From: Alicyclobacillus shizuokensis NBRC 103103
GTDB lineage: Bacteria; Bacillota; Bacilli; Alicyclobacillales; Alicyclobacillaceae
Length of the DNA: 64,000 nucleotides
Direction of reading: 5' to 3'
NCBI RefSeq assembly: GCF_001552255.1
Contig: NZ_BCQV01000006.1
Span: 1-64,000, forward strand
In this document: piece by piece, positions 1,975 to 63,762 of the stretch
Numbering within the stretch: the stretch's first letter is position 1
Layout of the letters: every line of letters starts with the position of its first letter
Made by a program: the position numbers and the translations under genes
The notes under the pieces: generated by a model
What the model saw: the letters and a program-made list of their open reading frames with translations, nothing else
What the model was told of the DNA's origin: nothing
Databases searched by the model: none

Positions 1975-2071
1975 CAACGGCAACCCGGCGATCCTAGACT
2001 TGGCCTTAGCTGCAGCCCGTAGACCCGTAGTTTTGCGTCCCAGCGTTTCCGCTGGTTTGCCCTGAACGTTG
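1975..2071 (-). promoter_or_regulatory. Cyclic di-GMP-I (GEMM-I) riboswitch aptamer
   Basis: Read on the minus strand the element has the GEMM-I hallmarks: AGGGCAAACC, then the perfect hairpin CCAGCG-GAAA-CGCTGG with a GNRA tetraloop, then GGACGCAAA and a second arm that includes the CTACGGG region. The ends close through CAACG (2071-2067) and CGTTG (1979-1975), giving a P1 helix. The intrinsic terminator at 1945-1970 follows, so ligand binding probably decides whether transcription enters the chemoreceptor gene. Whether c-di-GMP turns the gene on or off cannot be read by eye with certainty. Confidence 0.88.
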
Positions 2072-4379: not shown

Positions 4380-4391
4380 GGGTAATCCAGC

Positions 4392-5120: not shown

Positions 5121-5149
5121 CGGCACCCGAACGCCCGTCAGCCGAGGGG

Positions 5150-5180
5150 CCGGGAGACGGCCCGGCGCCGTGCCTCCCGG
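5150..5180. terminator. GC-rich hairpin between converging ktrA and MBL genes
   Basis: CCGGGAGACGG (5150-5160) pairs with CCGTGCCTCCCGG (5168-5180) with a small bulge and a 7-base loop. It separates two convergent genes and could end transcription from both sides, but neither side has a clear T-tract. Confidence 0.45.
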
Positions 5181-8506: not shown

Positions 8507-8547
8507 ACGACCACTCCCCTGCCGCGCCCATTGCTGTGCCATAGCCA

Positions 8548-9060
8548 TCAATACTCAACCAACGTTCGGATGGTGATATCGGACAGCTTGTCCCGGCCGC
8601 GCAGGTGTGTCAGCTCAATCAAAAACGCGGCGCCGACAACCTGCCCGCCCAACTTGCGGACCAACTCAATGGTCGCCCCGATGGTGCCGCCGGTGGCCAA
8701 CAGGTCATCGGCCACCACCACCCGCTGCCCGGGGGCAACCGCGTCCGTGTGAATCTCAAGCACGTTGGTGCCGTACTCCAATTGATACTCCACGCTCACC
8801 GTCTGCGCAGGCAGCTTGCCGCGCTTGCGCACAGGCACGAAGCCTACGCCCAGGGCATAGGCCAGTGGCGCCCCGACCACGTACCCGCGCGCCTCCGGGC
8901 CCACTATCAGGTCGGCGCCCACCCCCCGTGAAAACTCGGCCAGCGTCTCAATCGCCCGCCTGTACCCGGCACCGTCGGCCAAGAGCGGAGTGATGTCACG
9001 AAATAAAATTCCCGGCTGAGGAAAATCCGGAATCTCCCGGATGAGCCGCCTAAACTCCAT
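8548..9060 (-). CDS. apt: Adenine phosphoribosyltransferase
   Basis: Salvages adenine to AMP with PRPP. The 170-residue length is exactly that of typical bacterial Apt. The PRPP-binding loop VVVADDLLATGGT is at about residues 114-126, and the N-terminal IPDFPQPGILFRDITPLL is the Apt signature. ATG at 9060 follows AGAGGGA by five bases and is preferred over an upstream in-frame TTG. It lies 36 bases downstream of recJ and immediately before relA, a pairing conserved across Bacilli. Confidence 0.97.
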   Translation of the reverse strand: MEFRRLIREIPDFPQPGILFRDITPLLADGAGYRRAIETLAEFSRGVGADLIVGPEARGYVVGAPLAYALGVGFVPVRKRGKLPAQTVSVEYQLEYGTNVLEIHTDAVAPGQRVVVADDLLATGGTIGATIELVRKLGGQVVGAAFLIELTHLRGRDKLSDITIRTLVEY

Positions 9061-14394: not shown

Positions 14395-14704
14395 ACCAGG
14401 GAAGTGCGGCCAACGGACTCTCGTCGTCCGCGCGCCCTCGATAGGCATCGAGGGTCGCGTAGTTCATGAACTGACCGATTTGCAGCCCCAAGATGGCTTC
14501 CACCATGCGGTGCAGCGGCTGGCTGCCGCGTGTCCGCTCACGCACGCAGCGCCATACGTCGTCGGCTGTCACCTGCTCGTAGCCCAACAAATGAAACTCT
14601 TCCGCCTTGATGGCGCACAGATTCATCAGGTCGGGTTCATAGCCGCGCCATGGTTCCGCCAAGGTTCCCGGCTCGCGAACCAAAGGTTCCTCCTGCCAAC
14701 CCAT
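14372..14704 (-). CDS. comN: ComN-type post-transcriptional regulator
   Basis: Small cytoplasmic protein of 110 residues. In B. subtilis ComN (YrzD) acts post-transcriptionally on comE mRNA and interacts with DivIVA. Assignment rests on size, on the central helical segment with KAEEFHLLGYEQVTADDVWR, and on the location beside secD and spoVB, the same as in B. subtilis. The ATG at 14704 follows GGGGGAGA. The glycine/aspartate-rich end (GRADDES...) is not conserved. No enzyme motif is visible. A promoter for secDF starts within its final codons. Confidence 0.78.
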   Translation of the reverse strand: MGWQEEPLVREPGTLAEPWRGYEPDLMNLCAIKAEEFHLLGYEQVTADDVWRCVRERTRGSQPLHRMVEAILGLQIGQFMNYATLDAYRGRADDESPLAALPWFDGGKRG

Positions 14705-14818
14705 CTCATCTCCCCCTACCCAAAGGCGACGACCGTCCGCCTACACGATGGGCCTGGCGCCTGGTCGTTCGTTATAAGACAAGTTCGTCGCGCTTCGCAG
14801 AGTTCCTGCAGACAAGCG

Positions 14819-14846
14819 ACTATCCGCCGGCAAGGACGCATACAGA
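14819..14846 (+). promoter_or_regulatory. Candidate SigE-type promoter for spoVB
   Basis: ACTATC, 14 bases, then CATACAGA resembles the mother-cell SigE pattern (ATATT-N14-CATACAnT). It is 110 bases before spoVB, a gene controlled by SigE in B. subtilis. The match is partial, so this is tentative. Confidence 0.3.
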
Positions 14847-14956
14847 TGGCTGTAGGACGTGCTCCGTCTGTCCAACCGCACGCCAGTGCAGGCCGCCACG
14901 AGCAGCGGCAGGTGTGCGCCAGATGTCAGGTCCATTCGCCAAGGAGGGGTTGCTGC

Positions 14957-16540
14957 GTGGTCCGCCGTTCGTTTCTCCAGGGCGCTATAATCCTGATGGC
15001 CGCCGCTCTGGTCAATCGAATCCTCGGCTTCGTCTATCGCATCTTTCTCACACGCTTGATTGGCGCCGAAGGCATCGGCCTGTTCCAGCTCGTCAGCCCC
15101 CTTCTCAGTCTCATCCTGACCTTTGTCACCGCTGGCCTGCCTGTCGCCATATCCAAGCTGGTCGCAGAGACGGTTGTCCAGCGAGACAAGGTTCGCACCT
15201 TGCGCGTCCTGCGTGTCAGCACTGTTGTCATCTTGAGCATGGCTGTCCTCTTCACCCTTCTGATGTGGCTGCTGCGAGACCTGGTGCGCAAATACTGGCT
15301 GACCAACCCGATGGCCTATCCGACCTACCTGGCGATGATTCCCATTGTCTCCGTCATTGCCGTCGCCAGCATTTTCCGCGGCTACTTCCAGGGTCTGCAG
15401 GACATGTCACCGCCCGCCTGGGCCTCCATCCTGGAGACGCTGGTTCGCATCGGCAGCGTCTGGGTCCTGGCCGCATACTTTGTTCACGTCAGCCTGGCCT
15501 ACGCGGCCGCCGCCGCCATGCTTGGCATGCTGTGCGGTGAACTGGCCGGCCTCATATTCCTGATCATTCAATACCGGCGGCGCGCGCGTGTATCGGTAGT
15601 GTTTGCGGACGCGCCCAACCGCAGTCTGGAGAACGCCAGGCAGACACTGTCCGCCATCGCCGAGGTGGCCGCCCCGGTGACGCTCAACCGCCTCATCGGC
15701 TCGCTCCTGTATGCGGCCGAACCGGTGTTGGTCACGCGGGCGCTCGCGCTGGCTGGATACGGAACCCAGGCGGCGACCACCCTCTATGGCCAGTATGGAG
15801 GCATGGCCATCCCGCTACTGGTCTTTCCGACCGTGTTCACGGGCGCATTGGCCACCACCCTGGTCCCCGCCGTGTCGGAGGCTGCCGCCGACGATGAACC
15901 CGAGCGCATCCGGACGCGTCTCATGCAGACCTGGAAAGCCACCGCTCTGGTGGGGTTCCCGATGTCGGTCGCACTCACCTTGTTCGCCACGCCACTGTGC
16001 CAAGCCATCTACGGAGAGCCCAGTGTCGGCCCGATTCTGGCGCTGATGGCCCCGAGCGGTTTTCTGCTCTACCTGCGCGGCCCCTTGGCCGGTATCCTGC
16101 AGGGGCTGAACCGGGCCGGCGCAGCCATGCGCAACTCAGTGATTGGCGGCGTCGTGCAGCTGGCTCTTATGTATCTGCTGGCCGCTCGCCCCGGGCTCGG
16201 CATCCTGGGCGTGGCGCTGGCCACATCCGCCTCTGTGGTGCTGACAACGGCGTTGAATTTTATCGACGTGTACCGGCACATCGGGTTTGCGATTCGCATT
16301 GACGACACCGCGAAAATTGCCCTAGCGTCCTTCGGGTTGCTGGTGGTCCTGGAGTTTCTGCGGCAAACCCAACAGCCAACCCGTACGGTCTCCATGCTGT
16401 TGGCGCTGGCGGTGGGCGGAGCCGTCTACACCTGGCTGCTGGGATCCATGCGGGTGCTGACCTCGTCCAACCTGTCGCGCATTCCGCGCATCGGGCCGCT
16501 CTTGGCGCGCGTGTTGCGATGTTTTCCGTTCACCACTTGA
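14957..16540 (+). CDS. spoVB: Stage V sporulation protein B, MurJ/MOP-type flippase
   Basis: Polytopic membrane protein of the MOP superfamily, needed for spore cortex synthesis and thought to move lipid-linked peptidoglycan precursors. The 527-residue product starts MVRRSFLQGAIILMAAALVNRILGF-like, with the helix-1 pattern and the RxxGAEGIGLFQL motif of the SpoVB/polysaccharide-exporter group, and 13-14 hydrophobic helices. GTG at 14957 follows AAGGAGGGG with good spacing; the open frame upstream runs through the comN divergent region and is not coding. It is on the opposite strand from all its neighbours in this block. Confidence 0.93.
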   Translation: MVRRSFLQGAIILMAAALVNRILGFVYRIFLTRLIGAEGIGLFQLVSPLLSLILTFVTAGLPVAISKLVAETVVQRDKVRTLRVLRVSTVVILSMAVLFTLLMWLLRDLVRKYWLTNPMAYPTYLAMIPIVSVIAVASIFRGYFQGLQDMSPPAWASILETLVRIGSVWVLAAYFVHVSLAYAAAAAMLGMLCGELAGLIFLIIQYRRRARVSVVFADAPNRSLENARQTLSAIAEVAAPVTLNRLIGSLLYAAEPVLVTRALALAGYGTQAATTLYGQYGGMAIPLLVFPTVFTGALATTLVPAVSEAAADDEPERIRTRLMQTWKATALVGFPMSVALTLFATPLCQAIYGEPSVGPILALMAPSGFLLYLRGPLAGILQGLNRAGAAMRNSVIGGVVQLALMYLLAARPGLGILGVALATSASVVLTTALNFIDVYRHIGFAIRIDDTAKIALASFGLLVVLEFLRQTQQPTRTVSMLLALAVGGAVYTWLLGSMRVLTSSNLSRIPRIGPLLARVLRCFPFTT

Positions 16541-20694: not shown

Positions 20695-22874
<2,180 letters not shown>

Positions 22875-26581: not shown

Positions 26582-27229
26582 TTACGCCCGCACACCGCTG
26601 AGGTAGCGCAGGCAGCCGCGCAGCGCTTCCGCCGCGTCCAAGCTTTGCCCCTCTTCGAACACGGCGGCGACCGCCTCGGAGGCTTGCTTTTCATTATAGC
26701 CAAGCCCGATCAGGGCCTCAATCACATCCCCAGCCAGCCCCTCCGCCCCCGGATACGGACGGGAGCCCGGGAGCGCCGCCGGCGGGACCAAGCTTCCCTT
26801 GGCAGCGGCTGCGGTTCCCTTAGCCACGGCCACCTTCTCGCGCAGCTCCAGGATGATGCGCTGTGCCGTTTTCTTGCCCACGCCAGGCAGTCGGCACAAA
26901 GCGGCCGCGTCCTCGTGCACCACCGCCTGGAAGAATTCGTCCCGGCTCACGTCCGAGAGAATTTGCAACGCCCCCTTCGGTCCGACTCCGGACACCCGCA
27001 GCAGCATTTCAAACCAGTCCCGATCCCGTTCGTCCAAGAACCCGTACAACTCATCCGAATCTTCACGGACATACCGATAGGTATGCAAGAAGGCCTCGCA
27101 TCCTAGGGCGACCTGCCGCGTGACGGGCACGGGCACATAGACACGGTACCCGATCCCATGCACGTCGAGGTCCACGTAGCCTGCGCCGACCGCATGCACC
27201 GTGCCGCGTACAAACACAATCACGGCCAC
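26582..27229 (-). CDS. ruvA: Holliday junction branch migration protein RuvA
   Basis: Binds four-way junctions and loads RuvB. The 215-residue product begins MAVIVFVRGTVHAV, has the helix-hairpin-helix motifs VSGVGPKGALQIL and LPGVGKKTAQRIILELREK, and a C-terminal RuvB-binding domain with EALIGLGYNEKQASEAV. GTG at 27229 follows GGAGAGGA by about six bases and overlaps the ruvC stop by ten bases. Confidence 0.97.
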   Translation of the reverse strand: MAVIVFVRGTVHAVGAGYVDLDVHGIGYRVYVPVPVTRQVALGCEAFLHTYRYVREDSDELYGFLDERDRDWFEMLLRVSGVGPKGALQILSDVSRDEFFQAVVHEDAAALCRLPGVGKKTAQRIILELREKVAVAKGTAAAAKGSLVPPAALPGSRPYPGAEGLAGDVIEALIGLGYNEKQASEAVAAVFEEGQSLDAAEALRGCLRYLSGVRA

Positions 27230-33251: not shown

Positions 33252-34496
33252 CTACCGCACGCGGCAGCGCACAAAGCGGCGCTTGCCAACCTGGATCACC
33301 ATTCCGTCACGGACCTCTACCTTCGCATCCACATCCTGCAGACGCTCACCGTCGATGCGCACACCCCCCTGCTCGAGGAAACGACGCGCCTCGCTGCGGC
33401 TGACGGCCAGCCCCAAGTTCACCAACAGTTCGACAATCCATACCTCCCCTCCGTTACACTCGGCTTCGGGCATGTCGTCCGGCAAGCCCCCAGCTTGAAA
33501 CACCTGTCGCCAGCGCGCCACCGCCTCGCGGCTCGCGTCCTCGCCGTGAAACCGGCGCACCAGCTCGCCGGCCAGGCGCATTTTAGCGTCGCGCGGGTGG
33601 AGAGAACCGTCCTTGAGACCGCTCTGGATGCACTCCAACTCCTCCAGCGGCACTTCGGACACCAGTTCGAAATAGCGCGGCATCAGTTCGTCCGGAATCG
33701 ACATGGCCTTGCCGAACATGGTGTGCGGGTCTTCCGCCACGCCGATGTAATTGCCGAGGCTCTTGGACATCTTGTTCACACCGTCCAGGCCCTCCAGCAG
33801 CGGCATCATCAAGGCGACCTGCTGCTCTTGCCCAAATTCACGCTGCAGGGTGCGCCCCATCAACAGGTTGAACTTCTGATCCGTTCCGCCGAGTTCAATG
33901 TCGGTCCGCAGGTGCACCGAGTCATACGCCTGCATCAGCGGATAAAAGAACTCGTGAATGTGAATCGGCCGATTCTCCCGGAACCGCTTCTGGAAGTCTT
34001 CCCGCTCCAGCATGCGGGCCACCGTCAACGTGGAAGCGAGACGCACCACATCGGCAAACGTCAGGGGCGCCAACCAATCCGCGTTGTAGACGACCTCCGT
34101 CTTGTCCGGATGGAGGACTTTGAAGATTTGCGCCACGTACGTTTGCGCGTTGCTTTGCACCTCGTCCTCGCTCAACTGCCGGCGGGTTTCCGATTTGTCG
34201 GTCGGATCGCCAATTTGGCCGGTGAAGTTGCCGATGACCAGGTGGGCCACATGGCCGAGGTCCTGGAGCTGGCGGATCTTTTGCAGGACCACCGTGTGCC
34301 CCAGGTGGATGTCCGGCGCGGTCGGATCCAATCCCAGTTTGATACGCAGCGGCTGCCCCGTCGCCACCGACTGGCGCAGCTTCCGTACGAGGTCCTCCTC
34401 AGGGACAATCTCCGCCGCACCGCGGCGGATCATGCGCAGCTGGCGGGCCACCTCCGCCTCCTGCTCTGGTGTCAAGGAAACCTTGCCCTCGGACAT
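33252..34496 (-). CDS. tyrS: Tyrosyl-tRNA synthetase
   Basis: Charges tRNA-Tyr. The 414-residue product has the class I signatures HLGH (64-67) and KMSKS (242-246), the tyrosine pocket sequence GGTDQKFNLLMGR, and a C-terminal S4 RNA-binding domain (AVSRSEARRFLEQGGVRIDGER). The HIGH region (LDPTAPDIHLGH) and overall look are nearer to the TyrZ type than to the B. subtilis TyrS type. ATG at 34496 follows AGGAAAGGGG; an in-frame TTG two codons upstream is less likely. Controlled by a T-box leader. Confidence 0.96.
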   Translation of the reverse strand: MSEGKVSLTPEQEAEVARQLRMIRRGAAEIVPEEDLVRKLRQSVATGQPLRIKLGLDPTAPDIHLGHTVVLQKIRQLQDLGHVAHLVIGNFTGQIGDPTDKSETRRQLSEDEVQSNAQTYVAQIFKVLHPDKTEVVYNADWLAPLTFADVVRLASTLTVARMLEREDFQKRFRENRPIHIHEFFYPLMQAYDSVHLRTDIELGGTDQKFNLLMGRTLQREFGQEQQVALMMPLLEGLDGVNKMSKSLGNYIGVAEDPHTMFGKAMSIPDELMPRYFELVSEVPLEELECIQSGLKDGSLHPRDAKMRLAGELVRRFHGEDASREAVARWRQVFQAGGLPDDMPEAECNGGEVWIVELLVNLGLAVSRSEARRFLEQGGVRIDGERLQDVDAKVEVRDGMVIQVGKRRFVRCRVR

Positions 34497-34552
34497 TGCC
34501 AAAACCCCTTTCCTGTGCTTCCGAGATCACTCGCCGTGACGCAGCCGTCACG

Positions 34553-34800
34553 AAAAAAATCCCCGTCCCCATACGGGACGAGGATCCACTCGCGGTACCA
34601 CCCGATTTGCCCTCGACACCCACGGATGCCAAGGGCCGCTCATTGGCGAATAACGGAGCCACCGTCGTCGACTGCCGCCGGCGCGCCTCCCAGGCCGTAA
34701 TTTCAGTGGCGGACGGGACCGGTTTCCACCCCCCACCGGCTCTCTGAACCTCGCCGGCCACCTACTGCAGCCTGTTCACGGGCTGTTTTCCGAGCTGAAG
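34553..34800 (-). promoter_or_regulatory. T-box leader of tyrS
   Basis: The minus-strand leader contains the AG-bulge region AGAGAGCCGGTGG, the Stem I specifier-loop sequence TGAAATTACGG with TAC (tyrosine) as specifier, and the T-box GGGTGGTACCGCG at about 34589-34601. A terminator with stem CCTCGTCCC/GGGGACGGGG and seven T residues (34559-34553) follows. Uncharged tRNA-Tyr should favour readthrough into tyrS. Confidence 0.93.
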
Positions 34801-37893: not shown

Positions 37894-40230
37894 TTAGAGG
37901 GCCAGGGTGACGATGGTGGCGCCGTCTCCGCCCTCTCCGGGGCCGCCGGGCACCCAAGAACTGACGTGGCGATGGGCGCTGAGGAAGCGGCGGACGCCGT
38001 CGCGCAGGGCACCCGTTCCTTTGCCGTGGATGATGGTCACCCGTGGCAGCCGGGCCACCACCGCGTCATCGAGGTACTTGTCCAGCCTGTGCACCGCTTC
38101 TTCCACCGTCTCGCCGCGTACATCCATCTGCAGTGGCACCGACTTGACGGCGCTGCGGCGCACACCGGTGGATTTTGGCGCCGGCGCCGGCCGATTCAGC
38201 ACCTCGACCTCGTTCGCCGCCACCTTCATCCGCAACAGCCCTAGCTGCACCACCAGTTCCCGCCCGTCCGCAGAAACCTCCAGCACTTCTCCTTTTTGCC
38301 CCACCGAGGCCACGCGCACCAGGGTGCCCGGAACCAGAGCCCCCACGTGGGCCGCAGGTGTCGCGGATACAGCCCTCTCTCCCGGCTCCGGCCGCGCTTC
38401 GTCCAGACGCTTGCGCAGAGCCACCAGCTCGTGGTCCTTCACCGTCTCGGCTCGGAGCTGCCGCAGCTCCTGGATGACCGATTCAGCCTCCCGACGGGCA
38501 GATTCGAGAATCCGTTCCGCTGCGGCTGTCGCGGCCGCCTGCTGCTGCCTCACCTGCTCATCCAAGGCGCGTGTCCGACGTTCCCAGTCTTCTCGCAGCT
38601 TCTGAGCCCGAGCTTTCTCCTCCGTCGCTTGGGCGAGGGCGCGGTCCGCCTCTTTACGCGCCGTCTCCATCTTGGCGATGATGTCCTCCATCTGCACGTT
38701 CGTGTCCGCGATCCCCTGTCGCGCCCGCTCAATCACCGTCTCCGGCAGACCCAGCCGCGCAGCGATGGTCAGCGCGTTCGAGCGCCCTGGCACACCCATG
38801 CGCAGGCGATACGTGGGACGCAGGGTATCGACGTCGAACTCGACGCTGGCGTTCATGGCCGACGGGTGGGAGAAGGCGTACGCCTTCAATTCGGGATAGT
38901 GTGTGGTCGCCACGACGCGGCTGCCACGTGCGTAAAACTCGTCCAGGATGGCCATGGCCAGGGCCGCGCCCTCGGACGGATCGGTCCCCGCGCCCAGCTC
39001 GTCGAGCAGCACCAGACTGTGCTCACCCGCCGTTTGCAACATGGAAACGATATTGCGCATGTGTGAAGAAAAGGTGGACAGGCTTTGCTCGATGCTCTGC
39101 TCATCGCCGATATCCACACAGATCTCATGGCACCAAGCGACCTCGCTCGGCCTCTGGGTGGGCAGAAAACAGCCACACATCGCCAACAGGGTGAGCAGAC
39201 CCACTGTCTTCAGGGTCACCGTCTTGCCGCCCGTGTTGGGACCGGTAAGGATGAGCAGTCGGAACGACTCCCCCAGGCTCATGTCGAGCGGGACCGCTTC
39301 GCCGCGGGGCAACAGCGGATGGCGAGCGCGACGCAGGTGCCAGACGCCATCCCGACGAATGATGGGACGCTGGGCATCCTCGCGCCGGGCCCAGTCGGCT
39401 TTCGCAAACCAACTGTCCAGGCGGGCGACCACATTCAGGTTCTCCTCGCAGACATCCGCCACGCCGCCGACGGCCTGCGACAGTTCGTGGAGAATGCGCT
39501 CGATTTCGCGTTCCTCCTCCACAGCCAGCCGCTCCGCCCGTTGATTCTGCTCGACCACGGCCTGGGGTTCAACAAACACGGTCGCACCCGAGGCCGAGTA
39601 GTCCCGGATGATGCCGCGGATTTGGTTCTTAAACTCCACCCGGACCGGCAGACAGAGACTGTTGCCGCGCATGGCAATGACGGGATCCTGCAAGATTTTC
39701 TGGTGCGAGCGGAGGAAGCCGTCCAGCACCTCCCGGACACGCGCTTGGATGGCGCGGCGCTCACTGCGCAGCCGACGCAGAGTGGGGCTGGCCTGGTCTA
39801 GGACGGTACCGTCCACATCGATGGCGTGGCGGATCTGTTCTTCGACGGCGCGCGTAGGCGTCAGCCTCTGCGCCGCTTCAGTGAGGGATGGCCAGGACGT
39901 CCCGTGCCGCTCAATGAACTGGCGGATGCGGCGCACCGCCTCCATGACGTCGGCAATGGCCACCAACGCCTCCGGACTGAGCGTGCCGCCGATGCGTATA
40001 CTGCGCAGACTGCCGCGCACGTCGGTGATGCCACCAAACGGAGGCGGCCCAAACCGAAGCAGCATTTGCAGAGACTCATCCACGGCGGTCAGTTCCCGCT
40101 CCGCGTCCTCAGGCACGGCGAAGCAGCGCAGGCCCAACAGTCGTTCCCGGCCGAGGGAAGTGGCCGCGCGCTCCGCCATCCGCTCGATGACCTTGTCAAA
40201 TTCAAGTAAGATATATGTGCGTTCGTCCAT
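37894..40230 (-). CDS. mutS2: MutS2 endonuclease/ribosome-rescue ATPase
   Basis: MutS-like ATPase without the mismatch-recognition domain; in B. subtilis MutS2 limits or promotes recombination and also splits collided ribosomes. The 778-residue product has core and lever regions, Walker A LTGPNTGGKTV (about 333-343), Walker B LVLLDELGAGTDPSEG, a long coiled coil (about 510-640), and a C-terminal Smr nuclease domain with MDVRGETVEEAV and TIIHGKGTGALR. ATG at 40230 is preceded by GGAG; the longer open frame upstream is not supported by the family. Confidence 0.95.
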   Translation of the reverse strand: MDERTYILLEFDKVIERMAERAATSLGRERLLGLRCFAVPEDAERELTAVDESLQMLLRFGPPPFGGITDVRGSLRSIRIGGTLSPEALVAIADVMEAVRRIRQFIERHGTSWPSLTEAAQRLTPTRAVEEQIRHAIDVDGTVLDQASPTLRRLRSERRAIQARVREVLDGFLRSHQKILQDPVIAMRGNSLCLPVRVEFKNQIRGIIRDYSASGATVFVEPQAVVEQNQRAERLAVEEEREIERILHELSQAVGGVADVCEENLNVVARLDSWFAKADWARREDAQRPIIRRDGVWHLRRARHPLLPRGEAVPLDMSLGESFRLLILTGPNTGGKTVTLKTVGLLTLLAMCGCFLPTQRPSEVAWCHEICVDIGDEQSIEQSLSTFSSHMRNIVSMLQTAGEHSLVLLDELGAGTDPSEGAALAMAILDEFYARGSRVVATTHYPELKAYAFSHPSAMNASVEFDVDTLRPTYRLRMGVPGRSNALTIAARLGLPETVIERARQGIADTNVQMEDIIAKMETARKEADRALAQATEEKARAQKLREDWERRTRALDEQVRQQQAAATAAAERILESARREAESVIQELRQLRAETVKDHELVALRKRLDEARPEPGERAVSATPAAHVGALVPGTLVRVASVGQKGEVLEVSADGRELVVQLGLLRMKVAANEVEVLNRPAPAPKSTGVRRSAVKSVPLQMDVRGETVEEAVHRLDKYLDDAVVARLPRVTIIHGKGTGALRDGVRRFLSAHRHVSSWVPGGPGEGGDGATIVTLAL

Positions 40231-40320
40231 ACTGGCTCCGTTATCCTCGCTTCCAGCACCGCCGCGCCGCTGTGCGTGCAGCCCGGCCCGACGGCGTCCA
40301 GTGGTCGCAAGTTCCAACCC

Positions 40321-40329
40321 ATTGTAGCA
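40321..40329 (-). promoter_or_regulatory. Candidate extended -10 promoter of mutS2
   Basis: On the minus strand TGCTACAAT (40329-40321) gives an extended -10 about 90 bases upstream of the mutS2 start. No good -35 box is present. Confidence 0.35.
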
Positions 40330-40388
40330 CATGAGTCGGGCAGGTTGCGGACAGCCTATGGGTACAACGCATGGAAAGGAGGAGCGGC

Positions 40389-44300: not shown

Positions 44301-45380
44301 TCAGAAAACCGACGAAAATTGGCGCAGCAGCCGCAGGTCGTTCTGATACAGCAGGCGGATGTCGTCAATCCCGTACTTCAACATGGCGATCCGCTCGGGG
44401 CCCATGCCGAACGCAAAGCCGCTGAACTCGCGGCTGTCGTAGCCGGCCCCATCCAGCACCTGCGGGTGGACCATGCCAGCGCCCAGAATTTCCAGCCAGC
44501 CGGTGTACTTGCACACCCGGCAGCCACTGCCGCCGCAGTTCGTGCAGCGCACGTCCACCTCGGCGCTCGGTTCCGTGAACGGGAAGAAACTGGGGCGCAG
44601 GCGCACCTCCTGATTCGGACCGAAGACAGCCCGGGCAAACTGCTCCAACGTCCCCTTCAAGTCGCTCATGCGGATGCCCCGGTCGACCACCAGACCCTCA
44701 ATCTGATTGAACGCGTGCGAATGCGTGGCATCGTCCTCGTCCCGCCGATACACCCGGCCCGGGCAGATCACCTTGATGGGCGCAAACGGGCGCATGTTCT
44801 CCATCGTCCGCACCTGCATCGGGGATGTCTGGGTGCGCAGCAACAGCTCCTCGGTCAGGTAGAACGTGTCCTGCATGTCGCGCGCCGGGTGGTCCTTGGG
44901 AATGTTCAACATCTCGAAGTTGTAGTGGTCCGTCTCCACCTCAGGGCCTTCCACGATGGAGAAGCCCATGCCCAGAAACACGTCCTCAATTTCGGCGATC
45001 ACCCGCGTCAAGGGGTGGATGGAGCCGCGGGCAGGCGTGCGCCCGGGCAGGGTGACGTCGATGTGCTCCTGACGCAGGCGGGCGGACAACGCCAGTCCCT
45101 CCACCCGCTGCTTGGCACGCCCGAATCGGTCTTGCAGCACCCGCTGGGCTTCGTTCATCACCTGCCCAAGGCGCGGTCGCTCCTCTTTCGGCAGCTCCTT
45201 CATCTGCCGGGAAACCTGAGCTAGCGGGCCCTTCTTGCCCAGGTATTGGACCCGCCAGGCCTCCAGCCGCCGACTCGCGTGATCGGCGCCGGACGCCGCC
45301 TCGTTCTCGATTTCTTCCAGCTCGCGCAGGGCGGCGGCACGAATGTTGTCAATGTCAGCCTGCAACTGTTCCGTGTTCAT
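44301..45380 (-). CDS. pheS: Phenylalanyl-tRNA synthetase alpha chain
   Basis: Catalytic subunit of PheRS, 359 residues. A coiled-coil arm forms the N-terminus, then class II motifs: motif 1 near [19 protein letters not shown], motif 2 in [24 protein letters not shown], motif 3 in [17 protein letters not shown]. The [17 protein letters not shown] segment is common in bacterial PheS. ATG at 45380 is the likely start, but its SD is weak; an in-frame GTG four codons earlier lies closer to GGGAAGG. The open frame further upstream runs through the T-box leader. Confidence 0.96.
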
Positions 45381-45434
45381 CCCGAATGTCACCAGCCTTC
45401 CCAAAGGACAAAGGTCCAAACGTGCTCGTGCCGC

Positions 45435-45818
45435 AAAAAAAGCAACTCGCCCAAGGGACGAATTGCTCGCGGTACCACCCTTTTTGACCTGCCGCGCACG
45501 CAAAAGTCCGCATCGGTGCGCAGGCAAGCCCACCTCATCACGGATAACGGATCCGCCCCGGCCAGCCCTACTCCCGCTTCCGCTCCGGTTTTGCTTAACG
45601 GCGCTCGCCACACCCTTAGGCCGACGCCACACGCAAACCTGGTCCAGGCGGAAGGTTTCAGACTGGCAGCTCCAGGGTGAACTTCACACAGAACGCCCTA
45701 CTGGTGCGCTCTCAGTCTAAGGCGTCACCTCCCTGGCAGAGGGCCTCCTGCGCTACTCTCCCTTTCACAGCCGTTCGCAGTTTTTACGGGCCACCTCATC
45801 GGCACACTGTTCCTTATT
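45435..45818 (-). promoter_or_regulatory. T-box leader of pheS-pheT
   Basis: The minus-strand leader shows AGGGAGAGTAGC and CTGAGAGCGC from Stem I, the specifier loop GTGAAGTTCACC with TTC (phenylalanine), and the T-box AGGGTGGTACCGCGAG at about 45466-45481. A terminator GCAATTCGTCCC/GGGCGAGTTGC with seven T residues (45441-45435) ends it. Confidence 0.94.
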
Positions 45819-52010: not shown

Positions 52011-52121
52011 ATATTTCCAGAGACGTCCGTGAGAAACCGTCTTACAATGTGCATACATACTACGATTTCGACTCTTCAAGTCAAACCCACGTGTCGCCAG
52101 ATACACCTAGGGGGGCTCGCT

Positions 52122-53504
52122 ATGCAGATGGAACAGCGCAGTATTGAGTATATCCCAGAAGCGGAGCGCCACGGCAACGTACGAAATCTATTCAACATCT
52201 GGTTCTCAGCCAACGCCCAGATCACCACAGTCGTGACCGGGGCGCTCGCGACCGTCCTCGGCCTCAACCTGTGGTGGGCCATCATCGCCGTTGTCGCCGG
52301 CAATGCCATCGGCGGGATTTTCATGGCCTACCACTCCGCACAGGGCCCGAAGCTGGGCGTCCCCCAGATGATTCAGAGTCGGGCGCAATTTGGGGTCATC
52401 GGCGCTGTTTTGCCGTTGGTCTTAGTCATCGTCATGTACCTCGGCTTTTTCTCGACCAGCTCCGTGCTCGGCGCCCAGGCCCTGGCCTTGGCCCTACAGA
52501 TCCCACAGAACCTAAGCCTCGTGATTGTCAATCTGGCGGCCGTTCTGCTCGTTACTTTTGGGTACGATCTTATCCACCGCTATGAGCGGGTGGTGGCCAT
52601 CCTCTTCCTGCTCTTGTTTATATATCTTACTATCCGTTTGTTGCAGCAGCCGTTTCCAACCCACATGGCCGAACCCGGCTTCTCGTGGGGGCCGTTCCTG
52701 CTGGTATTGTCCATCATGGCGTCGTGGCAGCTCACCTATGCCCCATACGTCGCGGATTACTCACGCTACCTACCGAGCCACACATCCACAAGCGCGACGT
52801 TTTGGTACACGTATCTGGGATCCGTCATTGGCAGCAGCTGGATGATGATCCTTGGCGCCATCGCAAGTCTCGTCGCCCCCAAGGAGTCTGAAGAAATGGT
52901 GGCTTATTTCGGACACTTGGCCGGAGCCGGTATGGATATTGTGGTCTATCTGTTGATTGTACTGGGCGTACTCGCCATCAACACACTCAACCTGTATGGA
53001 GGCTTCATGTCCGTCGCGACGACCGTCAGCGCTTTTACGCCCTGGAGGACAACACGGACAGCGCGGCTCCTGTTCATTGTCTTGGTGGCCGCGGCCGGTA
53101 CCGCTATTGCCATTTGGGGCCAAGGCAACTTCCTTGATAACTACTCAAAGTTCCTGCTGCTGTTGCTGTATTTCATGATTCCGTGGACGGCCATCAACCT
53201 GGTCGACTTCTATCTGCTGCGCCGGGGTCGATACAACATCCACGCGATTTTTGACCTGCATGGGGAATACGGAAAGGTCAACTGGATAGCGATACTCGCT
53301 TATGTGGTGGCTGTGTTCATCCAATTCCCGTTCATGAACACGGACCTCTACGTGGGCGTGCTGGCCAAGCACATGGGCGGCGCCGATATCGCGTGGATAG
53401 TCGGACTGTTGGTAGCTGCCGCCCTGTACTATTTTCCGATGAAGGCACGTTTGAGTCTCAACGGAACCATGCTGAATCAGGAGACAGGCCATCCGGACCT
53501 GTGA
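52122..53504 (+). CDS. NCS1-family nucleobase/cation symporter (cytosine/HMP permease-like)
   Basis: Twelve-helix uptake protein of 460 residues. NCS1 features: IWFSANAQITTVVTGAL in helix 1, GPKLGVPQMIQSRAQFGVIG in helix 3, SWQLTYAPYVADYSRYLP, and NTLNLYGGFMSVATTVSAF. Substrates of the family are cytosine, purines, uracil, allantoin, hydantoins, thiamine or hydroxymethylpyrimidine. The convergent neighbour tenA, whose stop lies inside this gene's last codons, hints at a pyrimidine precursor of thiamine, but no TPP riboswitch is seen. ATG at 52122 follows AGGGGGG. Confidence 0.9.
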   Translation: MQMEQRSIEYIPEAERHGNVRNLFNIWFSANAQITTVVTGALATVLGLNLWWAIIAVVAGNAIGGIFMAYHSAQGPKLGVPQMIQSRAQFGVIGAVLPLVLVIVMYLGFFSTSSVLGAQALALALQIPQNLSLVIVNLAAVLLVTFGYDLIHRYERVVAILFLLLFIYLTIRLLQQPFPTHMAEPGFSWGPFLLVLSIMASWQLTYAPYVADYSRYLPSHTSTSATFWYTYLGSVIGSSWMMILGAIASLVAPKESEEMVAYFGHLAGAGMDIVVYLLIVLGVLAINTLNLYGGFMSVATTVSAFTPWRTTRTARLLFIVLVAAAGTAIAIWGQGNFLDNYSKFLLLLLYFMIPWTAINLVDFYLLRRGRYNIHAIFDLHGEYGKVNWIAILAYVVAVFIQFPFMNTDLYVGVLAKHMGGADIAWIVGLLVAAALYYFPMKARLSLNGTMLNQETGHPDL

Positions 53505-54154
53505 TAGGCTGCATCCCAAAACATGTATTCGAACCGGCTGGCGGTGATGAAGCGATCATACAGACGCTGTCGCCGCCAATCCGGCGCGTCTGCCGCCAAC
53601 TCATCCAAGCACGCGCGCAACCATGCCGTCAATTCACCAAACCGCGGATCCGCGTATTGCTCAATCCAGGCGCGATACAGCGAATCGGGCGCCAGACGAT
53701 TCGATTTAGCCAGCCCGCAGCCCACTTCCCAATACAACCAGGCGCAGGGCAATAGCGCGGCCAACAGTTCCTCCAGGTCGCCGTGAGCGGCCGCATCCAA
53801 GACATATTTGGTATAGGCCACCGTTACAGGCGCGGGCTCGGTCGCCTCCAATTCCTCCGGGGAGATGCCAAACTGGGCCGCGTAGCCCCTGTGCAGGTCC
53901 ATCTCCCGATTCAAAGTCGACTCGAGCAGCCCTGCAAAACGACTCGCCCACTCCAGCTTTGGCGCTTTGATGGCCGCCCAGGCGAACAGCTTGCTGTAGT
54001 CGATGAGATACACATAGTCCTGCAAGATATAAAACCGGAATTTATCTACATCCAGAGTTCCATCGCCCAACTCGCGCACAAACGGATGCTGATGGGCCGC
54101 CTGCCAGATGCTGTGCGTTTGTTCATGCAACCAATCGGTCACCTGCTGCCCCAT
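53477..54154 (-). CDS. tenA: TenA-type aminopyrimidine aminohydrolase (thiaminase II)
   Basis: Salvages thiamine breakdown products by hydrolysing aminomethylpyrimidine to hydroxymethylpyrimidine. The 225-residue product keeps the residues known from B. subtilis TenA: Asp46 in QDYVYL, Cys137 in LPCAWLYWEVG and Glu209 in SRFEYMFWD, so it should be active. ATG at 54154 follows GGAGG. It starts 42 bases after the last permease gene of a sugar-type ABC system, and its 3' end overlaps that of the convergent NCS1 gene by 28 bases. Confidence 0.94.
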   Translation of the reverse strand: MGQQVTDWLHEQTHSIWQAAHQHPFVRELGDGTLDVDKFRFYILQDYVYLIDYSKLFAWAAIKAPKLEWASRFAGLLESTLNREMDLHRGYAAQFGISPEELEATEPAPVTVAYTKYVLDAAAHGDLEELLAALLPCAWLYWEVGCGLAKSNRLAPDSLYRAWIEQYADPRFGELTAWLRACLDELAADAPDWRRQRLYDRFITASRFEYMFWDAAYHRSGWPVS

Positions 54155-54196: not shown

Positions 54197-55027
54197 TTAG
54201 CCTTTCACCGCTCCGCTGGTCAACCCGCTCACAATCCACTTCCGGAACAGAATCACCAGCACCACAATCGGCACCAGGGAGACCACAGACCCGGCGAAAA
54301 TCGTACCATAGGGTACATTATACTGGCCGCTGAACAGGGCAATGCCGACCGGAATGGTGCGCATGCTGTCGGATGAATTGAACACAAGCGCCATGAAGAA
54401 CTCTGTCCACGCCGCAACAAACGTGAAGACCGCTGCCGTGAACAAGCCGGGCCGGGTCAACGGCAGGAAGATGCGCCAAAACGACTGGAACACGGTCGCG
54501 CCGTCGACGGTCGCCGCCTCTAGCAAGGCTCCGGGCACCTGAAGAAAGTAGTTGCGGAGTATCCATACCGCAAACGGCAGGTTGAACGCCGTGTAGGGTA
54601 TGATGAGGGCTTGATACGAGTTGAGCCAGCCCACGGTCCGCAGAAGCATGTACAGAGGTGTGACGATGGCGATGGGCGGAAACATGGAGATGACGAGCAG
54701 CGCAACCATCAGTGCGCCCTTGCTCCGAATCGGCAGACGCGCCACTGCGAAGCCGGCCATGCTCGCCAACGCCAACACACAGAATGTGCTGGCGACCGAC
54801 ACAATCACACTGTTGCGAATGTACCCTGCGAACCCGTAACGACTGAAGGCATCGTGATAATTGCCGGAGGTAAACCGCTCTGGGATGAAGGTCGGGGGGT
54901 ATTGGCTGATCTCCAAGGGTGACTTAAAGGACGTCAATAACATCCATACAAACGGCAACAAAATCAGGAGCAAGAACAGAATGAGGACCATGTACCCCAC
55001 CGCCGTGCGACTTCGCGACTGTACCAT
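54197..55027 (-). CDS. Carbohydrate ABC transporter permease, MalG type
   Basis: Inner-membrane subunit of a CUT1-family importer, 276 residues, six predicted helices. The EAA loop that docks with the ATPase is EAATVDGATVFQSFWRIFLPLTRP. The ATG overlaps the stop of the upstream permease gene (TGATG), showing translational coupling. No ATP-binding subunit is encoded nearby, so a shared MsmX/MsiK-type ATPase from elsewhere is expected, as is common in Bacilli. Confidence 0.94.
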   Translation of the reverse strand: MVQSRSRTAVGYMVLILFLLLILLPFVWMLLTSFKSPLEISQYPPTFIPERFTSGNYHDAFSRYGFAGYIRNSVIVSVASTFCVLALASMAGFAVARLPIRSKGALMVALLVISMFPPIAIVTPLYMLLRTVGWLNSYQALIIPYTAFNLPFAVWILRNYFLQVPGALLEAATVDGATVFQSFWRIFLPLTRPGLFTAAVFTFVAAWTEFFMALVFNSSDSMRTIPVGIALFSGQYNVPYGTIFAGSVVSLVPIVVLVILFRKWIVSGLTSGAVKG

Positions 55028-55977
55028 CAGGCTCCCTCCGTTTCCACCATCGATCGAAACGCGGATAGGAACACCAGGCAGACTGCCAGTACCATGACCA
55101 CCGTACTCACTGCGACAGCTGTACCCGTGCCAAAGTGCAGATTTTGGAACAGTGTCTCATAACCGAGAATCGCCAGCGACTCGGTTGCGGTTCCAGGACC
55201 TCCGTTGGTCAGCACAAACGGCAGATCGAACACCCCAAAGGCCTGCAGAATGCGGAACAACCCGGCTAGAGCGATGCTCCCTCGCAACATGGGGAAGGTC
55301 ACACGCCAAAACGCGTGCCATCGGTTGGCCCCGTCGATGTAAGCCGCCTCATGATACTCATCCGGGATCATCTGTAAACCAGCCAACAAAACAATCACGA
55401 CAAACGGCGTCGTTTTCCATATATCGGCCACCATCATGGCGACAATGGCCAAACCCGGGGTTCCTAGCCAGGTTACCGGCCCGCCAATCAGATGCAGCGC
55501 TTGGAGTATCGCGTTGAACACACCATAAACACCGTTGTAGATGTAGGCCCACATTTGTGCCGAAATGACCGTGATCAGCGACCAGGGAATCAGCATGATG
55601 ACCAAAGACACGTCCTTGAGTCGACGCACCCCATTGATGGCCAGAGCAATCAGCATGCCTAACATGAGCTCGACCGCCACCGTGACGACGGCATAGTAAA
55701 CTGTGAACCACACACTGTGCCAAAACACCCCGCTGGTGGCGAGCACGCGGTAGTTGGCGAGCCCAGTGAACGACAGCGCAAATCCGTTGGTCGTCAGGTG
55801 GACGTCGTTGAAACTCATCCAAACCGAATACAGAATGGGAAACAAGGTGACCGCCGCAATCACGATACCCATCGGCAACAACATGCTGTAGCCGGCCCGG
55901 CGCTGGTTCCGCAGCAAATTGGCGCGCCGGCTAGGCGACCGCACGGTTCCAGACAAGAGGGTCTGATGCACCGCCAT
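55027..55977 (-). CDS. Carbohydrate ABC transporter permease, MalF type
   Basis: Partner permease of 316 residues with six predicted helices. The EAA loop reads EAAYIDGANRWHAFWRVTFPMLRG. The N-terminus is basic (RSPSRRANLLRNQRRAGY) before helix 1. ATG at 55977 follows GGGAGGAG. A strong hairpin lies between it and the upstream binding-protein gene, which often lowers permease expression relative to binding protein. Confidence 0.94.
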   Translation of the reverse strand: MAVHQTLLSGTVRSPSRRANLLRNQRRAGYSMLLPMGIVIAAVTLFPILYSVWMSFNDVHLTTNGFALSFTGLANYRVLATSGVFWHSVWFTVYYAVVTVAVELMLGMLIALAINGVRRLKDVSLVIMLIPWSLITVISAQMWAYIYNGVYGVFNAILQALHLIGGPVTWLGTPGLAIVAMMVADIWKTTPFVVIVLLAGLQMIPDEYHEAAYIDGANRWHAFWRVTFPMLRGSIALAGLFRILQAFGVFDLPFVLTNGGPGTATESLAILGYETLFQNLHFGTGTAVAVSTVVMVLAVCLVFLSAFRSMVETEGA

Positions 55978-56043: not shown

Positions 56044-57381
56044 TTAGAGGCCGCCGTTTCCACCCAGAGCCGACTGAATTTGCTTGGCTGCATCCGCAAG
56101 CGCCTTGTCCGTGCTGACACTGCCTGCCAGGGCCGCATTGACATTTGAATACACTGCTTTGGCAATGGCTGGATAGTTCGGATTTTGAGCCGGACGGGAC
56201 ACGTACTTGACCTTCGGCACGATAGAGAAGATGGGACTCTTCTGTTTTACGGACGGATCGTTTTGCACTTGTTTGTTGGTCGGGATTTCACTGAACTGCT
56301 TGGCCAGGATGGACTGCGCCTCCTTGCCGGTCATCCAATCGATGAACGCCAGCGCCGCCGGCAGGTTCTTGGTATGCGGGTTCACGTACAAATCCCAACC
56401 ACCGATGGTGCTGTAACCTGTGCCCCCGTCAAACGACGGCAGCGCCGTAACCCCAACCTTGCCGACCACCTTGGAGGCTTTGGGATCTTGCGAGTTCGGC
56501 CATGCATAGGACCAATTGCGAATGAATGCAGCATTGCCCTCCGTAAATACGTTTTCCGACTCTTGTTCCGTAAATTGCACGACAGACTTTGGCGTCACAC
56601 CGCTCGTGATAAGGCCGCGCATGAAGGACAGCGCCTTCTTCGCCGCTGCGGAATCGATAGCGGGTTTCCCATCTTTACCCAAGACCTGGCCGCCCGCATC
56701 GGCCAGATACTCGTCGAAGTCGCAGAGCAAACCTTCATAGGATGACCCCTGCCACACGAAGCCGTATTTGACCAGGCCTTTCTTCTGGAGAATTCGCGCG
56801 TCTTTCTGGACATCCTCCCAGGTGTTTGGCACCGACAGGCCCGCCTTCGCCAACAGGTCCTTGCGATAGAACAAAAAGGCGGTATCAACGAAGAATGGAG
56901 CGGCGTACACCTTGCCGTTGTAAGTGGCCCCCTGTACGAGCCCGTTGGCAAACCGGTTCCAGAACGAATTCGGCACCAGGCCTGTCAAAGGCTTCGCCAA
57001 CTGGTTGGCCGCGAACTGGGCGGGCCACACGACGTCGCCCAGGTACACGTCCGGCGTATTGGCCCCGCCTCCGATGGCGGTTGTCAAGCTGGCACGGTTC
57101 GTATCGGTGTTGTTATCCTGCATCTATAATTTTACCTTGATGTTGGGATGGCTCTGCTCGAACGCTTTGACCATCGTTTCGGGCAGACCTGTTTGGGTAA
57201 TGGGTGGCGTAGCCCAGACGATGGTCCCTTTCGCCTGCGAAGTGTCAATCGGTTTCGCGCCGCCCTGCTTCGCGGTATTGGCTGTGTTCGCCCCGCTTCC
57301 GCCCGATCCGCACCCTGCCGCGATACTGCACACGAGTACGACTGCCGTGCCAACGACCGCGCCTTTGCGTGCACGATTCAT
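56044..57381 (-). pseudogene. Sugar ABC transporter substrate-binding lipoprotein gene with in-frame TAG
   Basis: Extracytoplasmic binding protein of the CUT1 family. Both halves are in one reading frame: from ATG 57381 a signal peptide with lipobox-like SIAAGC (Cys24) leads to ETMVKAFEQSHPNIKVKL, then TAG at 57126-57124 as codon 86, then MQDNNTDTNRASLTTAIGGG and TPDVYLGDVVWPAQFAANQL through to residue 445. Sequence on both sides of the stop fits one continuous binding protein. It is therefore a nonsense mutation, a sequencing error, or a readthrough site. The closest types are trehalose/maltose or ThuE-like binding proteins. ATG at 57381 follows GGAGGGG. Without it the importer should not work. 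Confidence 0.85.
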
Positions 57382-57474: not shown

Positions 57475-58497
57475 TCATCGAGACACCGTTTTCACCGTGT
57501 CACGTTCAATGATCTGGTGCGGTAATAAATGGATACCCCCACACGCCTCCGTCTCACCGGCGCCAATGGCCTGCAGCAGACACTCCACCGCCAACCGCCC
57601 GATTTGCTGAAACGGTTGGGCGACGGTCGTCAGCCCGGGCGTCGTCATTTCGGCCACATACAGGTTGTCGTAGCCCATCACCGAGACATCGTCCGGGACA
57701 CGCAGCCCATGCTCGGCCAGGCAGCGAATCGCCCCCAGCGCCATCTCGTCGCTGGCCGCGAACACGGCCGTGAAGCCCTCTCGGCCCACCCTTCTCAGGA
57801 TGCGATCCATGGCCCGATATCCCTCGTGGAAATGAAAGTCGCCAAAATCAACGAGTTCGTCGGAGTATTCCGCACCATAGTGTGCCAGCGCCTGCCGGTA
57901 TCCCTCCAGGCGCGTGGAGCCAGCCACGTCATTTTCAGGCGGACCCGCCACCATGGCGATACGGCTGTGGCCGCGTGCAATCAGGTAGGCCGTCGCGTCG
58001 AAGGCGGCTTTCACATCGTCCGTTCGGAACGCGGACAGCGGACGCATGCGCGAATGTGTCAAGGCGAGCACCACCGGAATCCCCAATCGATCAATCATCG
58101 CCTGATAGTCGTCCGTTATCGATCCACTCGTAAATATGATGCCGGCTACACGGTGCTGTTTCAGAAAGGTGAAACCGTCGAGCGCCCGGTGGTGATCCAG
58201 CTGCGCGTCGAACAGGAGCACCTTCATGCCGTGCTCCCAGGCAACCTCGTCGATTCCCTGGTAAAGCTCGTTGAAAAACAAGCCGTTGATGCCCGGGACT
58301 AACAACCCAATGGTGTCCATGTGCTGCACACTCAGCCCGCGGGCGATCGCGCTCGGTTGAAAGTCCAGCTCCGCCATCGCCTGCTGCACCTTGCGGCGCG
58401 TCTCAGCCCCGACTTTGACCGGATCGTTCAACACGCGGGACACCGTCGCCGGAGAAACCCCGGCCCTGTTGGCCACAGTCCGTATCGTCACCTTCAT
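57475..58497 (-). CDS. LacI-family transcriptional repressor
   Basis: Sugar-responsive regulator of 340 residues. The N-terminal helix-turn-helix is TIRTVANRAGVSPATVSRVLN and the hinge follows at about residue 50-60 (QPSAIARGLSVQHMDTIGLL). The rest is a periplasmic-binding-protein-like effector domain with the conserved AVFAASDEMALGAIRCLAEHGLRVPDDVSVMGYDN. ATG at 58497 follows AAGGGGG; the frame is open 8 codons further. It probably controls itself and the ABC transporter genes downstream on the same strand through the two palindromes in its leader. Confidence 0.94.
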   Translation of the reverse strand: MKVTIRTVANRAGVSPATVSRVLNDPVKVGAETRRKVQQAMAELDFQPSAIARGLSVQHMDTIGLLVPGINGLFFNELYQGIDEVAWEHGMKVLLFDAQLDHHRALDGFTFLKQHRVAGIIFTSGSITDDYQAMIDRLGIPVVLALTHSRMRPLSAFRTDDVKAAFDATAYLIARGHSRIAMVAGPPENDVAGSTRLEGYRQALAHYGAEYSDELVDFGDFHFHEGYRAMDRILRRVGREGFTAVFAASDEMALGAIRCLAEHGLRVPDDVSVMGYDNLYVAEMTTPGLTTVAQPFQQIGRLAVECLLQAIGAGETEACGGIHLLPHQIIERDTVKTVSR

Positions 58498-58516
58498 GGT
58501 TTTGAGCCCCCTTCCC

Positions 58517-58530
58517 AGCAAGCGCTTTCA
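58517..58530. promoter_or_regulatory. LacI-type operator, proximal site
   Basis: AGCAAGCGCTTTCA contains the palindromic core AAGCGCTT and, read on the minus strand (TGAAAGCGCTTGCT), is close to the LacI/CcpA consensus. It lies 20 bases before the lacI start codon. Confidence 0.7.
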
Positions 58531-60912: not shown

Positions 60913-63762
60913 CTACTTCACGGCTATCTTCGACTCATTCAGCTGCAATGCTTCCGAGACAATGCGCGCCTGCTCAACATTGTGCACATCCGGCTCCCCT
61001 TCCGCCGGGCTCGACCGCCTGCGTCGACCGATGTAACCAACGGTGATATGGTCGGCCACGGACGCGTGAATGCGCGGCTCCATGTAGTTCCAGGCGCCCA
61101 TGTTTTTCGGTTCTTCTTGCACCCAGACAACCTCTTCCAGGTTGCTGAACCGGCTCACCACAGCCTCAACCTGCTCCTGCGGATACGGATACAGCTGCTC
61201 GACGCGCACAATGTGCACATGCTCGGGCTTGTCGGCGGCCGACTCCAACGCTGCCTCCAGGTCCAATGCCATCTTGCCGGTGCACAGGATGAGCCGTCTG
61301 ACCTTGTCCGGCTGCTGTCCCAAGCCGGGCTGCTCCACAATCGGCCGAAACTCGCCCGTGCATAACTCTTGCCACGGGGAGGCCGTACGCGGATTGCGCA
61401 GCAAACTCTTCGGCGCCATCAACACCAGCGGCCGCATGTGCGGAGTCCCGAGCCGCGCAGCCTGGCGCCGCAGCAGGTGGAAGTACTGGGCCGCGCTGGA
61501 CAGGTACGCCACCACCCAGTTGTCCTCGGCGGCCAACTGCAGATAGCGTTCCAGGCGGGCGCTCGAGTGCTCCGGGCCCTGACCCTCGTACCCGTGCGGC
61601 AGCAGCATCACCAAACCGGAATCCTGGCCCCACTTGGCACGCCCGGCAGCGATGAACTGGTCAAACATCGGCTGCGCGACGTTGGCAAAATCCCCGTACT
61701 GGGCCTCCCACAGCACCAAGGTTTCCGGAGCAAACACATTGTAACCGTACTCGAAGCCGAGCACAGCCGTCTCCGTCAACGGGCTGTTGTGGATGGCAAA
61801 GGTGGCCTTCGCCTGCGGCAGCGCCTGCAGGGGAGACCAGGTGCGGCCCGTGTGGGGGTCGTGCAACACCAGGTGACGCTGGGCAAACGTGCCACGCTCC
61901 GTGTCCTGACCCGTGATGCGCACCGGCGTGCCGTCCTCCAGCACAGTGGCAAACGCCAACGCCTCGGCCAACGGCCAATCCACGCGCCCGTCCCCCTCCA
62001 GGCTGGCTTCCCGCCGCTTCAAGATGCGCGCCAATTTCGGATACACGGTGAATCCTTCCGGCCAGGTCAACAGGGCACGATTAATGGCGCGCAGGCGCTC
62101 TGCAGGGACAGCTGTGCGGACCGGGTCCGGCCTGCCGACGTCTGAGATTGGCGATTTGGGCGGATCCACCTCACCCTGGGTCACCCGCTGATACTCCTGT
62201 TGCAGACGCTGCTGCACGTCCCGCTCCATCTTTTGTACTTCTTCTGGCTGCACGACACCCTGGCGCACGAGAGCATCCGCATACAGCGTCCGCACCGTCT
62301 TGTGCTGGTTGATCTTTTGGTACATCAGCGGTTGGGTGACAGCCGGATCGTCCATCTCGTTATGGCCCCAGCGCCGGTAGCCAATCAAGTCAATCAAGAA
62401 ATCCCGATGGAAGCGGGAACGGTATTGGCATGCCAAGTAGATGGCGGCCAGACAGGCCTCCGGGTCATCGGCGTTGACGTGCACAATCGGGATTTCATAC
62501 CCTTTGGCCAAGTCGCTCGCATAGCGTGTCGACCGGTCATCAAAACTCTCCGTGGTGAACCCAACCTTGTTGTTCGTGATGATGTGAATCGTACCCCCGG
62601 TTTGGTACCCAGGCAGGCGGGAAAGGTTGAGCGTCTCAGCCACCACACCCTCGCCCGAGAACGCGGCGTCGCCGTGGACCAACACGGCGAAGGCCCGCTT
62701 GGGGTCCTGCTTGGGCGCCCCGCCGCCCTGCCGGTCCTCCTGGGCCGCGCGGGTGAACCCTTCCACCACCGGGTTGACGACCTCAAGGTGGCTCGGGTTG
62801 TTCGCCAGGGTCAAGCGCACCTGTACCGACTCACCCTCCGTCAGCGAGCGTGCCATGCCCAGGTGGTACTTGACGTCGCCGGTCCAGCCGTAGTTGATGC
62901 CCATCGACCCTTCGGACGGTACCAGTTCCTTGTTGGGGGCCGCGTGAAACTCGGTGAAGATAACACCGTACGGCTTACCCAAAACGTGCGCCAACACGTT
63001 CAAGCGGCCACGGTGCGCCATGCCAATCATCACGTCGCGCGCCCCGGCCTCCACGGCGCAGCGAATCAGATGGTCGAGCATCGGCACCAGGATATCGACG
63101 CCTTCAATCGAAAACCGCTTCTGGCCGACAAAGGTCCGGTGCAGGAACCGCTCAAACCCTTCCACTTCCGACAACCGCTGCAAAAGCGCGCGCTTTTGCT
63201 CCGCGGTGAGGGGTCGCCTGAACGCCCCCGATTCCACCATCTGGTTCAGCCAGACGCGTTCCTCCGCCACATGCACGTGCTCAAACTCGTACGCCAGCGA
63301 ATGCGTGTAAATTTCGCGCAGGCGGGCGATAGCCGTGCGTCCATCGTGGACATCGGAAGGCGCTTGCGGCCAAATCAGGCGGGCGGGGATCTGCGCCAAG
63401 TCCGCCTCCGTCAGACCATAGGTGGCCGGTTCCAAGTAATGCGCATCCCGGCCCGAGTCGTCTATCGGATCGATCTCGGCCGCCAAGTGTCCGTATGTAC
63501 GGATGTTGCGGACCAACTCTGCGGCCGCTAGAACCTTCTGCCAATCGTGCACATCCGGCGCCCCGGCGCCTGCCGATGCGGGCGACGGACCGGTCTCGCC
63601 CTGCGGTGGCGGACCGTACTGGTCGAACAGCGCGCGCGTGCTCTCGTCCACCGACTGCGGATCTTCACGGTATCGTTCATACAACTCATTGATGTACCCG
63701 AGATTGGGACCGACAAATTCCCGCCACGGATTGTGCGTGTCGGCTGGTGTCCCATTCGCCAT
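60913..63762 (-). CDS. odhA: 2-oxoglutarate dehydrogenase E1 component
   Basis: Thiamine-diphosphate enzyme that decarboxylates 2-oxoglutarate. The 949-residue length is normal. Motifs: [18 protein letters not shown], the ThDP/Mg site [20 protein letters not shown] with [13 protein letters not shown], the [18 protein letters not shown] segment, and the C-terminal [15 protein letters not shown]. The N-terminus ([21 protein letters not shown]) resembles the E2-binding peptide seen in many OdhA. ATG at 63762 follows AGGAGATGG. First gene of the operon, with a clear promoter upstream. Confidence 0.97.

Follow-up and report, generated by a model that had tools for sequence, protein, structure and literature searches.

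In-frame stop codons in otherwise open bacterial genes are an already published class, and those in which TAG stands for CAG belong to it. They are the subject of a survey by Belinky et al. (2021; PMC7918605). In the available part of that survey, such stops are described as mostly short-lived, a TAG/CAG example is shown, and the stops are read as frequent readthrough events, the vast majority of which are assumed not to be functional recoding. Among the categories given there, carbohydrate transport and metabolism ranks second in frequency (6126 cases), after the mobilome (9889 cases). The stop described here, in a sugar-binding lipoprotein gene of Alicyclobacillus shizuokensis NBRC 103103, is of this kind. 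As in the part of PMC7918605 available, it has TAG for the CAG of orthologues, purifying selection around the site, a recent origin and a place in carbohydrate transport. Unlike the stops of the survey, which in that part are shared by at least two species, it is found in only one of 29 sequences (the window and 28 homologues). Among the Alicyclobacillus pseudogene and genome papers listed, none refers to this gene in its title.

The product of the gene is related to the family-1 solute-binding proteins (PF01547), with the same family recognized in the A. kakegawensis orthologue at residues 70-440. The best solved sequence matches are MalE3 (6dtq) and a trehalose/maltose-binding protein (1eu8). 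In contrast to the genes of this family, that of the window is broken at codon 86. The window is the whole 64-kb stretch analysed, bases 1-64000 of contig C6 (91,810 bases), and comes from a 3.63 Mb draft genome of 148 contigs with a completeness of 99.68%. The features of the locus are as follows, with all dN/dS values for the binding-protein gene and its neighbours calculated against A. kakegawensis.

57124..57126, minus strand: TAG, codon 86 of the binding-protein gene (sequence and translation; sense codon in 28/28 aligned homologues)
57127..57381, minus strand: upstream part of the gene, codons 1-85 (translation; alignment with A. kakegawensis)
56044..57123, minus strand: downstream part of the gene, codons 87-445 and the terminal TAA, with ATG first (PF01547, E-value: 8.4e-43; dN/dS 0.077)
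55027..55977, minus strand: first permease, intact (PF00528; 316 aa in both species; dN/dS 0.100)
54197..55027, minus strand: second permease, intact (PF00528; 276 aa in both species; dN/dS 0.060)
57475..58521, minus strand: LacI-family regulator, upstream, intact (PF00356 and PF13377; dN/dS 0.078 and 0.084)

The binding-protein gene runs on the minus strand from an ATG at 57381 to a TAA at 56046-56044. Codon 86 is TAG (57126-57124) and is followed by 359 open codons in the same frame, the first of which is an ATG that directly adjoins the stop on its 3' side. An earlier note had described an in-frame TAG splitting a lipoprotein gene, and this is what the reverse complement of 57124-57126 gives in the frame set by the ATG at 57381; translation likewise yields the junction reported there, N-I-K-V-K-L-stop-M-Q-D-N-N. 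The note had also placed family sequence on both sides of the stop, and this agrees with the comparisons made. The downstream part has the conserved domains SBP_bac_1 (PF01547; E-value: 8.4e-43) and SBP_bac_8 (E-value: 2.1e-29). When taken by itself, the upstream part of 85 codons has no Pfam match at an E-value of 0.001, but it aligns over its full length with the A. kakegawensis orthologue. Read by eye, this upstream part appears to comprise a signal peptide, a lipobox-like AAGC and the start of the binding-protein fold. The export and lipidation signal, on the same by-eye reading, sits before the stop and so is not on the same product as the PF01547 domain. The gene differs from its A. kakegawensis orthologue by 89 substitutions in 1338 bases and no indels, and codon 86 is its sole internal stop; the absence of other damage claimed previously is therefore confirmed. 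The permeases and regulator, also said to be intact, are so by Pfam domains, length comparison and dN/dS against A. kakegawensis. A cluster of substitutions at codons 85-87 was considered as a special event and rejected because three changes within at most five bases occur not only at the TAG site but at three other places in the gene, two of them overlapping. Just past the permeases, a minus-strand TenA thiaminase II gene and a PF02133 permease gene converge tail to tail (both within 52029-54154). The latter permease matches the NCBIfam NCS1 model and, less strongly, that of the hydroxymethylpyrimidine transporter CytX, reaching the cut-off of neither.

Homologues were obtained by a pattern-seeded scan of 84,980 species genomes, which gave 30 loci. 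Two were left out of the site comparison (L037, with 31% identity, and L038, which matches residues 72-172 only), and the remaining 28 align over the site. In each of these, the position of codon 86 is occupied by a sense codon, never by a stop. The residue is Gln in 15 (CAG in 10, CAA in 5), Val in six, Ile in four, and Thr, Glu and Arg in one each. The nearest relative, A. kakegawensis NBRC 103104 (96% protein identity, 93% DNA identity), has CAG, from which TAG differs by one transition; A. herbarius has CAA. The three genomes of the genus that were searched, the window's own included, contain no second representative of its species. Because every aligned homologue has a sense codon and the nearest has CAG, the stop is, as judged from this alignment, derived in the window's lineage. 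Comparison with relatives had been proposed in the earlier note, and CAG is one of the codons that it had named as refuting the stop if found on resequencing. The most probable explanation, at roughly 80%, is an ordinary, recent nonsense (amber) mutation that inactivated the binding protein of the importer.

The main rival to a nonsense mutation, itself improbable, is a sequencing or assembly error, in which case the cell would carry a sense codon and an intact gene. The draft state of the assembly, the single transition that separates TAG from the codon of the nearest relative and the clear purifying selection over the rest of the gene are consistent with an error, as is the fact that no other damaged gene was recognized wherever the window could be aligned with A. 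kakegawensis. However, the conserved genes compared show no further stop or frameshift, and the site lies outside homopolymers (the nearest run is four A) and 35 kb from the nearer end of the contig. Isolated substitution errors in such drafts are rarer than real nonsense alleles.

The quality of the surrounding sequence was assessed from ORF comparisons. By tblastn, 47 A. kakegawensis ORFs of at least 100 aa match the window, and eight of these matches contain a stop, including that of the binding protein. The other seven were rejected as signs of bad sequence or a changed code because they lie on the strand opposite genes that are intact in the window (second permease, PheT, NAD synthase with YebC, RuvC, DUF421, RelA and D-Tyr-tRNA deacylase). 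An apparent frameshift in ORF K18 was rejected as antisense as well; the real strands carry ORFs of 121 aa and 175 aa, with equal lengths in both species. A length difference of more than 10% is seen in nine of 50 ORF pairs, among them that of the binding protein. Four of the ORFs (14480-16540, 20695-21819, 44301-45632 and 52029-53504) align with A. kakegawensis ORFs with no internal stop, so that their length differences look like start-site differences, and four more (1-384, 502-996, 26799-27080 and 37907-38605) are opposite ORFs that align without a stop. At 37900-40330, long ORFs run antisense to an 812-aa gene (minus strand) in both species and can mislead ORF-based stop counts.

Several other features of the window were observed. 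Approximately 2.1 kb (3077-5178) is missing from the compared A. kakegawensis stretch; by eye, the ORF at 2967-4379 and that at 4392-5120 resemble a potassium channel of the Trk/Ktr type and its regulator. A c-di-GMP-I riboswitch is found at 1976-2071 (minus strand; 75.6 bits, gathering score 35), and a T-box leader at 34571-34788 (minus strand; 111.7 bits, gathering score 93) precedes the gene at 33252-34502.

Selection on the gene was examined on both sides of the stop. The dN/dS against A. kakegawensis is 0.173 before the stop and 0.077 after it, the latter within the range of the neighbours (permeases 0.100 and 0.060, LacI regulator 0.078, urocanase 0.086). When A. herbarius serves as the outgroup to polarise changes, the window branch carries 10 nonsynonymous and 10 synonymous changes downstream of the stop, and the A. 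kakegawensis branch 4 and 16, respectively (Fisher P = 0.096). For the whole gene, the ratios are 16:18 and 10:18, respectively (P = 0.44). These counts give at most a hint of relaxed selection on the binding-protein gene. The corresponding window-branch and A. kakegawensis-branch ratios of the neighbours are 11:21 and 15:32 (first permease), 2:22 and 10:25 (second permease), 10:32 and 14:34 (LacI regulator) and 4:20 and 15:30 (urocanase); the permeases are thus without relaxation on the window branch. The genes odhA and odhB (named by reading) were left unpolarised, with no outgroup match in the compared stretch. A low dN/dS after the stop would fit a young stop, a gene used via readthrough or restart, or a sequencing error alike.

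Functional restart or readthrough, taken together, is unlikely. Amber readthrough or recoding would give full-length lipoprotein at a low level, and the low dN/dS downstream of the stop is consistent with this. PMC7918605, in the part available, makes the case that in-frame stops in bacteria frequently undergo readthrough for short periods; its authors assume that functional recoding does not apply to the vast majority of them. The genome has an open release factor 1 gene (546.9 bits, cut-off 423.25), which argues against recoding, as does the lack of a stop in any of the 28 homologues. Known leaky stop contexts have C as the base after TAG, whereas A follows it here. The search for amber suppressor tRNA genes that the earlier note had suggested gave a negative result: Rfam finds 53 tRNA matches in the genome, and of the 53 tRNAs that ARAGORN calls in 20 stretches covering these matches, none has a CTA anticodon. 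A weak Rfam match (C34:50390-50459; 29.8 bits) is not called by ARAGORN and has no CTA in its letters. A genome-wide pattern for an amber-type anticodon loop and T arm gave two hits, versus five in a reversed control, and ARAGORN calls neither hit a tRNA; in generic form the same pattern recovers 43 of the 53 known tRNAs, so a suppressor of unusual form could escape detection. Pyrrolysyl-tRNA synthetase (PylS) has two weak matches (22.8 and 22.6 bits) below the cut-off of 178.15, which is reached in one of 14 control genomes. TAG also serves as a normal terminator, in about 10 of 50 window ORF pairs and in both species in about eight of these; the counts are approximate because the pairs were picked greedily and several antisense ORFs were included. 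Genes that end in TAG in both species include relA (6350-8551, Pfam-supported) and a 949-aa gene (60913-63762). The earlier note had left recent loss, sequencing error and recoding side by side. Recent loss fits best, an error is less probable, and recoding is without support from the release factor, tRNA, PylS, terminator-usage and conservation tests. Functional readthrough is the least probable of the explanations considered.

Restart at the adjacent ATG differs in the product expected. Ribosomes that end at the TAG would restart at the ATG and make a cytosolic 359-residue protein of some use. The two codons adjoin in frame, an AAGG lies 11 bases 5' of the ATG, and a review (PMC5972666), in the part available, describes how bacterial ribosomes can reinitiate close to a stop, at a start codon with a Shine-Dalgarno-like sequence ahead of it; some restart at the ATG is therefore plausible. 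The AAGG, however, is also present in A. kakegawensis, where no stop exists and codon 87 is TTG, itself a possible start codon. The earlier note had pointed out that Met opens the downstream half and that a signal-less product could be made by restart. The first point is correct and such a product is possible, but codon 87 does not encode Met in any of the 28 homologues. The product would lack the first 86 codons and, as read by eye, the signal peptide and lipobox. Aligned to MalE3 (6dtq), it begins near residue 40 of the solved chain and lacks approximately the first 39 residues; an early strand-helix-strand (secondary structure by eye) would therefore be missing. A useful restart product is very unlikely. 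Equally improbable is the proposal that the TAG-ATG pair has been selected as a switch, acting by stop-restart or by low-level readthrough, through which the binding protein is lowered or relocated, with the downstream part under selection.

The proposed model for an ordinary, recent amber mutation is as follows. A single mutation in the lineage of the strain would have converted to TAG a codon that specifies Gln in the nearest relatives. Translation would stop after 85 residues, and at most a short lipid-anchored stub would be exported. The importer would be left without its binding protein, presumably with loss of transport. The genome contains 12 other matches to the binding protein, all without an internal stop, as candidate stand-ins; their identity to it is at most 34%, and the match with the best score has 31%. 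The gene itself displays the stop, its derived state and an intact remainder. An in-frame stop where orthologues are open marks a young pseudogene, and the gene would be either a pseudogene of very recent origin or a null allele that is segregating.

If real, the stop would represent another lineage-specific loss of a sugar importer, useful for strain description only. The finding of a full-length or restarted product would give it more importance, because purifying selection is still evident in the downstream part over the time since its lineage diverged from A. kakegawensis.
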